Shown: positions 24,354 through 26,354 of the stretch, one piece after another
Numbering within the stretch: position 1 is the stretch's first letter
How the letters are laid out: every line of letters begins with the position of its first letter
From: Egicoccus sp. AB-alg6-2
GTDB lineage: Bacteria; Actinomycetota; Nitriliruptoria; Nitriliruptorales; Nitriliruptoraceae
Reading direction: 5' to 3'
NCBI RefSeq assembly: GCF_041821025.1
Contig: NZ_JBGUAY010000010.1
Coordinates: 1 to 64,000 of the forward strand
Length of the DNA: 64,000 nucleotides
Notes under the pieces: model-generated
The model's database searches: none
Seen by the model: only the letters and a program-made list of their open reading frames with translations
Told to the model about the DNA's origin: nothing
Made by a program: the position numbers and the translations under genes

Positions 24354-25208
24354 TCAGAGCAGTGGCCAGGGAAACGGACGCTCCCCGTGCGGTTGGGGGA
24401 ACGCCTCGAGGTCGCCCAGACGACGGAGGCGGTCGGCCAGCACCGCCACCTCCGGTGCGCTGAGCAGCCCGACCAGCCGCGGCAGCAGTCGCTCCTCGAG
24501 TTGCTCCGCCAACGCGGCCACCGCGGCGGTGAGGGCTGCGGGGACCGGCTCGCCGGCGAAGTGCCACCCGACGGTACGCAGCTTGAACTCGGTGGACAGC
24601 GAGACCCCGTGGTCGACCAGGCGGACCCTGGGTGCCACCGCGTCCGGCGGCGTGGGACTGGTTGGCTGCTCGAGCAGCACGTGTCCGCCCTTGCGGTCGG
24701 CGTTGTCGATGACGAGGTCGAACACGACCATCGTCATCAGCTGCCCGATCACGGCCGGTTCACCGTGCTCGAGCAACCAGAAGTAGTGCTGCTGCGGGTC
24801 GTGCGGGACGAACCGCTGGAGGCTGCCGATCCCGAACGGGCCGTCCTCGCGGCGGACGGTCGTCGGGACCAGGTCCCAGCCGAGCGCGTCGGAGATCTCG
24901 AAGGCGGCCACCTCGCGCGCATGGAGGGTCCCCGTCGGGAAGTCCCAGAGGGGCCGCTCGCCGCGTTGCGGCTTGTACACCGCCAGGTCGTCGGGGGCGA
25001 GGTCCTCGACGGCCGGCTCCCGCCCGAGGTCGGCGGCGATGGTCGCCAGATCGCGCGGGTCGCGGTCCCGCAGACGGACCAGGAGCGTGGCATTGGAGGC
25101 GTCGGCGAACTGCCCCACGGGCTCGAGCGGCGCCTCGAGCAGCCGGCGCCGCACCTCGTCGACAGGCGCGGGCGACTCGCACGCGGGGGCGTCGCCGTGG
25201 GGGTCCAC
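24354..25208 (-). CDS. SCO1664-type PI3/4-kinase-like protein
   Basis: This 284-residue protein belongs to a conserved actinobacterial family with a phosphatidylinositol 3/4-kinase-like fold. Kinase-like features are the lysine of LAVYKPQRGERPLWDFP, the conserved EVAAFEISDALGWDLVP, the catalytic-loop form DLVIDNADRKGGHVLL (Asp/Asn pair) and the DxG-like VDHGVSLS. GTG start at 25208, one base after the DUF3090 gene. It lies directly downstream of DUF3090 and a histidine phosphatase in one minus-strand operon, as in streptomycetes and mycobacteria, where mshC is usually next. Here a GNAT and recO follow instead. The substrate is not known. Confidence 0.85.
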   Translation of the reverse strand: MDPHGDAPACESPAPVDEVRRRLLEAPLEPVGQFADASNATLLVRLRDRDPRDLATIAADLGREPAVEDLAPDDLAVYKPQRGERPLWDFPTGTLHAREVAAFEISDALGWDLVPTTVRREDGPFGIGSLQRFVPHDPQQHYFWLLEHGEPAVIGQLMTMVVFDLVIDNADRKGGHVLLEQPTSPTPPDAVAPRVRLVDHGVSLSTEFKLRTVGWHFAGEPVPAALTAAVAALAEQLEERLLPRLVGLLSAPEVAVLADRLRRLGDLEAFPQPHGERPFPWPLL

Positions 25209-25209
25209 G

Positions 25210-25740
25210 TCAGCGGGCGAGGCGCCCGTGACCGTTGGTCGACGGGCAGACGTGGGTGCCGTCGGCGGCCATCGGTCGGCCACACAGCTGACAACGGGGC
25301 CGGCCCTGCCCGACCAGTTCGTCGGCGTGGGCGGCCAACCGGCGCGCCTGGTCCTGGTTGCACCAGATGCGGACCTCGCGCGGTTCGGGCAGGTCGGTGA
25401 GCTCGGACTCGTCCTCGACGACCAGCAGCTCGGTGAACTCGAGGACGAAGGCGCCACCCTCGTCGTCGACGCCGACCCCCAGCTCACCTGCACGCCAGCG
25501 CGGATCGATCGGCTCGCGCAACGCCATGGCCGCCCGGTCCCAGTCCGTCGCCGGGCGGTCGTCGACGCGGGCGAGCAGTTGGGCGAGCAGGTCGCCGATG
25601 CCCGCGACCTGCTGCTTCTCGAGCACCAACGTCACGAGTTCCCGCTCGTCCTGCGCCTGCACGAAGAAGGTGCGGTTACCCGGTTCGCCGATGGTGCCGA
25701 CGGTGACGTGATGCGGATCGGTGAGCTCGACGTCGATCAC
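25210..25740 (-). CDS. DUF3090 protein with a C-terminal zinc-ribbon-like motif
   Basis: This 176-residue protein (GTG start, overlapping the phosphatase stop as GTGA) matches the DUF3090 family: VIDVELTDPHHVTVGTIGEPGNRTFFVQA at the start, LVLEKQQVAGIGDLLAQLL, then FVLEFTELL, EVRIWCNQDQARRLAAHADELV. It ends with CQLCGRPMAADGTHVCPSTNGH, three cysteines and histidines that could bind zinc. Its function is unknown. The strict linkage to the kinase-like and phosphatase genes suggests one pathway. Confidence 0.9.
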   Translation of the reverse strand: MIDVELTDPHHVTVGTIGEPGNRTFFVQAQDERELVTLVLEKQQVAGIGDLLAQLLARVDDRPATDWDRAAMALREPIDPRWRAGELGVGVDDEGGAFVLEFTELLVVEDESELTDLPEPREVRIWCNQDQARRLAAHADELVGQGRPRCQLCGRPMAADGTHVCPSTNGHGRLAR

Positions 25741-26354
25741 GGCCGACCCCCCTGCAGCGGACCAGCGGTGAGGTTGCAGGCGGCGACCACCGGTGCGTGC
25801 CCGTCCGCGAGGTGCAGCACGCTGGCGGACGCGGGTGAGACGACCAGCCGCTGGAAGGCGTCCAGCGGCATGCCGAGGAAGTGCGCGAGCAGGGCCTTGA
25901 TCACGTCGGCGTGGCTGACGGCGACGACGGTCTCGTCGGCATGGTCGGCCGCCAGCGACTCGACGGCCTCGACGGCCCGCGCCTGCATCGCACGGATCGA
26001 CTCGCCACCCGGGAAGGTCACGCGGGACGGGGTGTGCTGGATGACCGGCCACAGCTTGCGACGGCGCAACTGCCCGAGCGGCTTGTCCGTCCAGTCGCCG
26101 TAGTCGACCTCGCCGAGGTCGCGACGGGTGCGCACCCGGAGCCCGTGGGGACGTGCCACGAGCTTGGCGGTCTCCTGCGTGCGTTCGAGCGGCGAGGCGT
26201 ACACGGCCGCGACGGGCAGCTCCGCGAGCAGCGCCGCCGTACGTTCCGCCTGGCCGACCCCGGCCGCGTCGAGGTGGACGCCGGGCGTCCAGCCGCCGAG
26301 GCGCTTCCCCGTCGCGGCGGTGGTGGCGTGCCGGACCAGGACGATCGTTGCCAC
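25737..26354 (-). CDS. Histidine phosphatase, MSMEG_4193-like
   Basis: This 205-residue protein is a branch 1 histidine phosphatase: the phosphohistidine is in LVRHATT (residue 9), followed by SPLERTQETAKLV, GEVDYGDWTDKPLGQLRRRKLW, and the second histidine in VVAVSHADVIKALLAHFLG. The WxPVxxHPSxVxFPGGES-like segment places it in the MSMEG_4193 family found with DUF3090. The substrate is unknown. It is the first gene of the three-gene operon. Confidence 0.9.
   Translation of the reverse strand: MATIVLVRHATTAATGKRLGGWTPGVHLDAAGVGQAERTAALLAELPVAAVYASPLERTQETAKLVARPHGLRVRTRRDLGEVDYGDWTDKPLGQLRRRKLWPVIQHTPSRVTFPGGESIRAMQARAVEAVESLAADHADETVVAVSHADVIKALLAHFLGMPLDAFQRLVVSPASASVLHLADGHAPVVAACNLTAGPLQGGRP

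Follow-up and report, generated by a model that had tools for sequence, protein, structure and literature searches.

A coupled phosphatase–DUF3090–kinase gene trio of Egicoccus sp. AB-alg6-2, a candidate phosphorylation switch found with and without mshC

Introduction

Each of the three protein families considered here already has a named NCBIfam model, namely TIGR03848 (a histidine phosphatase), TIGR03847 (the DUF3090 protein) and TIGR03843 (the kinase-like SCO1664 protein), and the authors of these models reportedly describe them as a three-gene system. The counterpart in Mycobacterium tuberculosis is presumably, from gene position, Rv2133c-Rv2135c. In 2014 Chandra and Chater described the close linkage of SCO1664 to mshC as invariable and suggested a possible involvement with mycothiol, which is apparently confined to actinobacteria (PMC4255298). 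Rv2135c encodes a tetrameric acid phosphatase that carries an RHA motif and lacks phosphoglycerate mutase activity; its natural substrate is not known, and its gene adjoins Rv2136c, a uppP homologue (PMC3866925). Since uppP also lies upstream of the phosphatase gene in mycobacteria-like loci, Rv2135c is taken here as the M. tuberculosis orthologue of the TIGR03848 phosphatase. MSMEG_4192 and BCG Rv2134c are presumably DUF3090 genes, judging by gene order. The former is listed in a ClpC1 interactome (PMC10433963) and the latter in a transposon table of rifampicin sensitivity (PMC11329110).

An earlier note on the DNA studied here held that the role of the trio has not been described. The trio is indeed unexplained, but the families are catalogued, the linkage to mshC is published (PMC4255298) and Rv2135c has been assayed (PMC3866925). 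The Egicoccus trio is a new example of a known, functionally unexplained gene set. What is new here is its decoupling from mshC, its distribution in Chloroflexota, the co-occurrence of unlinked members, a phosphatase–DUF3090 fusion and a kinase metal site with His in place of Asn.

Results

Organization of the locus

The window (the whole stretch of DNA analysed) comprises 64,000 nt of Egicoccus sp. AB-alg6-2, positions 1-64,000 of contig NZ_JBGUAY010000010.1 (GCF_041821025.1). The trio fills positions 24354-26354 exactly, with all three genes head-to-tail on the minus strand and each starting with GTG. They encode a 205-aa histidine phosphatase of the TIGR03848 (MSMEG_4193/Rv2135c) family (25737..26354), a 176-aa DUF3090/TIGR03847 protein with a C-terminal zinc ribbon (25210..25740) and a 284-aa kinase-like protein of the SCO1664 family, TIGR03843 (24354..25208). 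The stop codon of the phosphatase gene and the start codon of the DUF3090 gene share a 4-nt overlap, GTGA (25737..25740, minus strand), and the DUF3090 stop is separated by a 1-nt gap from the kinase start (TGA-C-GTG, 25206..25212, minus strand). The three genes therefore overlap or nearly touch, as the earlier note had claimed, and their products pass the NCBIfam cut-offs.

The same minus-strand run includes proS and a DUF2461 gene upstream of the trio; downstream it continues with a GNAT gene, recO and uppS. A scan for promoters and terminators at the trio found no pattern. In 80 independent loci all three genes have identical order and strand, most of them touching or overlapping, with exact 4-nt overlaps at the two junctions in 30/80 and 23/80 loci. 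Given 80 loci of the same order and strand, this arrangement is far beyond chance.

The histidine phosphatase

The phosphatase scores 221.7 bits against TIGR03848 (curated cut-off 203.85) and 166.6 bits against PF00300. Its catalytic residues R8, H9, E82 and H148 are present, and the aligned positions are kept in 80-81 of the 81 loci compared. The catalytic motif at residues 8-10 (26325..26333, minus strand) is RHA, the form found in 30 of these loci, with RHG in 50.

At one Chloroflexota locus (L199:2814-3551, minus strand) a different histidine phosphatase, scoring 73 bits against the family model, is encoded directly downstream of the kinase gene, and the usual one upstream is absent. This is a possible case of non-orthologous replacement.

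The DUF3090 protein

The second protein reaches 134.8 bits against TIGR03847 (curated cut-off 117.25) and 133.6 bits against PF11290. In its zinc-ribbon motif, C150-x2-C153-x9-H163-x-C165 (25246..25293, minus strand), the three cysteines are conserved in 80/81 loci and H163 in 76/81. The ribbon is missing from DUF3090 of the Anaerolineae loci L124, L138, L148, L153, L164, L168, L178 and L188, in which the flanking GR...NG stretch is retained. As this set keeps the rest of the protein, the ribbon is neither core nor essential in DUF3090.

The AF2 model (pLDDT 91.6) has two beta-rich halves, with a helix closing each, plus the ribbon. Its top fold match in Foldseek is to PUR-alpha repeats, with a probability of up to 0.98 but E values of only 5e-3 to 3e-2 and TM scores of 0.29-0.47. 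A profile search of the PDB returned no PUR chain and no solved relative by sequence, and a fold search among viral models gave no significant match. An internal repeat is weakly supported (P 0.0013, probability 18%).

The residues G18, G21, R23, F25, E41 and K42 are invariant and resemble a binding surface. Among the Ser, Thr and Tyr residues none is kept in 85% of sequences, so that DUF3090 is unlikely to be a phospho-acceptor; we infer that it may be an adaptor.

The kinase-like protein

The match of the third protein to TIGR03843 (217.9 bits) is well above the curated cut-off of 172.4. Against PF00454 (PI3/4-kinase) it scores 23.5 bits, under the gathering score of 27.1, and it is therefore not filed as a PI3/4 kinase. 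The residues N39, K79, D89, E99, D164, D171, R172, K173, H176, D199, R211 and W215 are invariant in 163/163 kinases of both phyla; about half of these sequences were found by patterns including DRKxxH or GExPLWDF, so that their invariance is partly ascertained there, and the 80 loci taken by HMM are unaffected. The kinase-like Lys and Asp, whose loss in most orthologues the earlier note had raised as an objection, are thus kept in every sequence. K79 (24972..24974, minus strand), in a YKP motif, is the predicted ATP-binding lysine, and D199 (24612..24614, minus strand) lies in a DFG-like DHG motif, which aligns with DNG of PI4K II.

The AF2 model of this protein (pLDDT 94.0) finds its best PDB fold match in PI4K IIalpha (E 9e-8) and also matches PI4K IIbeta; FAM20 and CtkA follow (E 5e-6 to 1e-3). 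A sequence profile searched against the PDB likewise retrieves PI4K II at E 5e-6. In the profile alignment, the predicted catalytic loop D171-R-K-G-G-H176 (24681..24698, minus strand) faces DRGNDN of PI4K II, and H176 takes the place of the metal-binding Asn of the latter. The Asn expected of PI3/4 kinases here is replaced by His in 163/163 sequences. Judged by alignment and model, the SCO1664 protein would resemble a PI3/4 kinase in its predicted working.

Distribution in Actinomycetota and relation to mshC

We counted genomes by their kinase, DUF3090 and MshC matches in a sample of 276 Actinomycetota. DUF3090 and the kinase share one set of 117 genomes, which disposes of a lack of co-occurrence, another objection foreseen in the earlier note. 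The lone genome with DUF3090 only (G162) has a contig that ends five bases past the match, and the single kinase-only candidate (G174) was rejected as a spurious match (E 9e-4). The genomes of Kocuria and Citricoccus encode the phosphatase and the kinase and lack DUF3090, the kinase of C. glutamicum is likewise unaccompanied by a DUF3090 match, and in Arthrobacter Leaf141 DUF3090 is located elsewhere in the genome.

All 20 genomes in which a true mshC was detected also have the trio, and by coordinates mshC adjoins it in 18 of them. An intermediate MshC-like gene is present in 38 more trio genomes and lies near the trio, by contig position, in none. The remaining 59 trio genomes, that of the window among them, lack an MshC match of either grade, and in four genomes an intermediate match occurs without a kinase match. 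The claim that the trio usually stands next to mshC thus holds for genomes with true mshC and fails for actinobacteria generally: a survey of neighbourhoods with and without mshC, as proposed in the earlier note, places the gene beside the trio in 18/20 true-mshC genomes and, by contig position, nowhere else among the trio genomes.

In the Egicoccus genome the sole MshC/CysS homologue is a cysteinyl-tRNA synthetase (CysRS; 431 bits for cysS versus 273 for MshC), so that mshC neither adjoins the trio, as had been noted, nor occurs elsewhere in the genome. The trio of the window does stand without mshC, but this is no peculiarity, as it is the rule outside true-mshC genomes and in Chloroflexota. 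The presence of the trio in 59 genomes without an MshC match, and in the window's genome with CysRS only, shows that it does not depend on mshC.

Mycothiol-type homologues were seen at four loci of the window's genome (L204, G000 C1:405834; L211, G000 C2:103623; L214, G000 C1:392028; L213, G000 C1:486600). MshB scores 245.9 bits, above its cut-off, MshA-like and MshD-like proteins score 413.6 (cut-off 462.5) and 128 (cut-off 163), and for MshC there is the CysRS only. The best MshC matches in the whole of family f1, to which this genome belongs, are no better (1e-73 to 1e-86). This may mean either a mycothiol pathway that lacks MshC or the use of a different ligase.

Distribution in Chloroflexota

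A scan of named genomes revealed the kinase throughout Chloroflexota; DUF3090 accompanies it as a rule and the phosphatase in many cases. Among 151 Chloroflexota genomes, DUF3090 is present in 99 and the kinase in 84; 79 have both, 5 the kinase only, 20 DUF3090 only and 47 neither (Fisher p 2e-17 for the association, with kinship ignored). Of the 79 genomes with both, 24 have them far apart or on separate contigs, contig breaks accounting for some of these cases, and in three Dehalococcoidia genomes DUF3090 is away from the kinase locus. The order is swapped, with the kinase before DUF3090, in G302, G312, G321, G330 and G348. Many Anaerolineae have DUF3090 and the kinase without a TIGR03848-family phosphatase alongside.

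The kinase tree splits Actinomycetota and Chloroflexota almost cleanly (three changes, versus 33 in shuffles), although two rows labelled as Chloroflexota, L195 (from a Rokubacteriota genome) and L198, fall inside Actinomycetota. Such a near-clean split fits old vertical inheritance, with one ancient transfer as the alternative that the sequences might also allow. Two metagenome-assembled genomes (MAGs), L186 and L163, labelled Bifidobacterium breve and Rokubacteriota, carry kinases of the actinobacterial type, which are probably misbinned contigs.

In one MAG of Anaerolineae (L153:4155-5273, plus strand) the phosphatase is fused in frame to a ribbon-less DUF3090 domain, followed by a second DUF3090 gene and the kinase gene. 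This fusion, seen in that one genome only, is a single case, but one that testifies directly to joint action of phosphatase and DUF3090. Five further candidates were rejected: Pfam finds DUF3090 only in the long frames of G431, G358 and G307, and in G427 and G344 DUF3090, phosphatase and kinase occupy separate frames, so that none of them is counted as a fusion.

Neighbouring genes

Neighbours were surveyed in 81 loci of up to 16 kb each and in 80 loci from named genomes. No neighbour family common across clades was found in these 81 + 80 loci; the neighbours are clade-specific, namely mshC, uppP, ETF, acetyl-CoA synthetase, citrate synthase, threonine ammonia-lyase and proS/recO. The flanks of the relocated DUF3090 genes have nothing in common.

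Two local associations were also observed. In 11 Anaerolineae loci (L130:2998-4056, L122, L119, L133, L151, L159, L172, L174, L181, L190 and L155) a homoserine dehydrogenase gene lies directly behind the kinase gene, often overlapping it or a few bases away. In Acidimicrobiia-like genomes an electron-transfer flavoprotein pair and an FrhB/FdhB-type protein (families f26/f42/f65/f66) occur near the trio.

Ino1 is found in 112/117 Actinomycetota genomes with the trio versus 78/159 without it, and in 75/84 Chloroflexota genomes with the kinase versus 64/67 without it, i.e. with no association in the latter phylum (p 0.23). A link to inositol was rejected, as the Actinomycetota signal is confounded by clade and Chloroflexota show no association.

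Discussion

Although 117 of 276 sampled Actinomycetota have the trio and over half of the Chloroflexota in the sample have the kinase, no role has been assigned to these genes. Retention in two phyla, also in species without mshC, suggests that the trio is probably an old, general phosphorylation switch. Our main reading, to which we give a probability of about one half, is that the trio is a reversible phosphorylation switch with DUF3090 as its adaptor, whose target is neither mycothiol-specific nor clearly inositol-linked. The trio would form one translationally coupled module, in which the SCO1664 protein would be an active ATP-dependent kinase with a compact fold of the PI4K-II / FAM20 / CtkA type. 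Its target would lie in the cytosol, and its dedicated counterpart, the histidine phosphatase, would remove the phosphate from this same substrate. DUF3090, small and without catalysis of its own, would bind one or both of the enzymes and keep them in place or regulate them. What is phosphorylated would be general to Actinomycetota and Chloroflexota; we prefer a protein to a metabolite.

Several observations count for the switch: the gene layout, the co-occurrence of DUF3090 and kinase, also where the two are unlinked or swapped in order, the invariant kinase residues, the confidently predicted fold with its PI4K II, FAM20 and CtkA matches, the conserved phosphatase residues, the phosphatase activity of Rv2135c, the fusion and the lack of a cross-clade neighbour. 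Counting against it, the three genes are separable, as in Kocuria, Citricoccus, C. glutamicum and Anaerolineae, and the fusion occurs in one MAG. The earlier note had proposed a phospho-switch or a metabolite cycle of a kinase, a phosphatase and a zinc-ribbon protein. This is still the best class of explanation, except that the ribbon does not belong to the core of DUF3090, as the ribbon-less Anaerolineae show.

The metabolite variant of that proposal is the most serious rival, possible although we find it rather unlikely: the kinase would phosphorylate a small molecule (a sugar, amino acid, alcohol or cofactor precursor), the phosphatase would reverse this, and DUF3090 would be a regulator or metallochaperone-like. 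Kinases of PI4K-II-like fold include metabolite and lipid kinases, the close histidine phosphatases include alpha-ribazole and phosphoserine phosphatases, and homoserine dehydrogenase follows the kinase in the 11 Anaerolineae loci; against these points stands the lack of any neighbour pathway common across clades. Rv2135c does weakly dephosphorylate small phospho-esters, but its Km of 7.75-14 mM is no pointer to a natural substrate (PMC3866925). The same enzyme, a phosphatase without phosphoglycerate mutase activity (PMC3866925), makes it least probable of all that the kinase feeds a phosphomutase, the reading of the trio's phosphatase that the TIGR03848 name 'putative phosphomutase' and membership of the dPGM superfamily would favour; the best PDB relatives by sequence are also phosphatases.

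Hardly more probable is a place of the trio in mycothiol or inositol-phosphate metabolism, with the phosphatase supplying, for example, the missing MshA2 step. The published linkage (PMC4255298), the 18 of 20 true-mshC genomes with mshC beside the trio, all 20 carrying it, and the PI4K-like fold of the kinase speak for this, but not the 59 trio genomes, the window's included, without a true or intermediate MshC match, nor the four intermediate-MshC genomes without a kinase match. Moreover, the system is common in Chloroflexota, where Ino1 does not track the kinase (75/84 vs 64/67, p 0.23), and mycothiol is apparently actinobacterial only (PMC4255298). The invariant His that stands where PI4K II has its metal-binding Asn would suit a kinase-like protein with other chemistry, such as AMPylation, glutamylation or nucleotide-dependent scaffolding. 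Other kinase-fold families do carry out non-kinase chemistry; nevertheless invariance extends to the Lys, the Glu, the catalytic Asp and the DFG-type Asp, and the usual neighbouring gene encodes a phosphatase, which makes this improbable, if somewhat less so than the mycothiol or inositol role.

Returning to the switch, its fullest version is tentative, with the odds against it: an ancient device of Actinomycetota and Chloroflexota, with an uncharacterised class of kinase marked by the invariant His for Asn, a PUR-like and often zinc-bound DUF3090 adaptor and a general, non-mycothiol target. Independence from mshC removes the main functional guess so far, that of mycothiol, and the trio points to a general regulatory or metabolic phosphorylation, which mycothiol-free organisms would allow to be tested. 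Two concrete features are likewise accessible to experiment, namely the His kept throughout at the metal site of the kinase and the adaptor role proposed for DUF3090.

Comparison with known systems

The trio of the window is like the TIGR03843/03847/03848 set in families, gene order and coupling, and all three curated cut-offs are passed. It differs in that it has no adjoining mshC or uppP, lies between DUF2461/proS and GNAT/recO/uppS, and belongs to a genome without mshC. Its phosphatase and Rv2135c are both histidine phosphatases with the unusual RHA motif (PMC3866925), whereas most other loci carry RHG; phosphatase activity has been demonstrated for Rv2135c, and the window protein is known from its sequence. 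PUR-alpha, with its Whirly-like nucleic-acid-binding repeats, may resemble the predicted model of DUF3090 with its beta-rich halves each closed by a helix, a putative likeness that serves as a lead only. PI4K IIalpha and IIbeta are the best fold and profile match of the kinase, the DR-loop and the D-x-G motif being aligned; unlike them, the SCO1664 protein has a core of about 240 residues and a His for the metal-binding Asn. The secreted FAM20 kinases and Helicobacter CtkA are alike in fold at 11-16% identity, and FAM20, too, has a residue other than Asn at the metal site.
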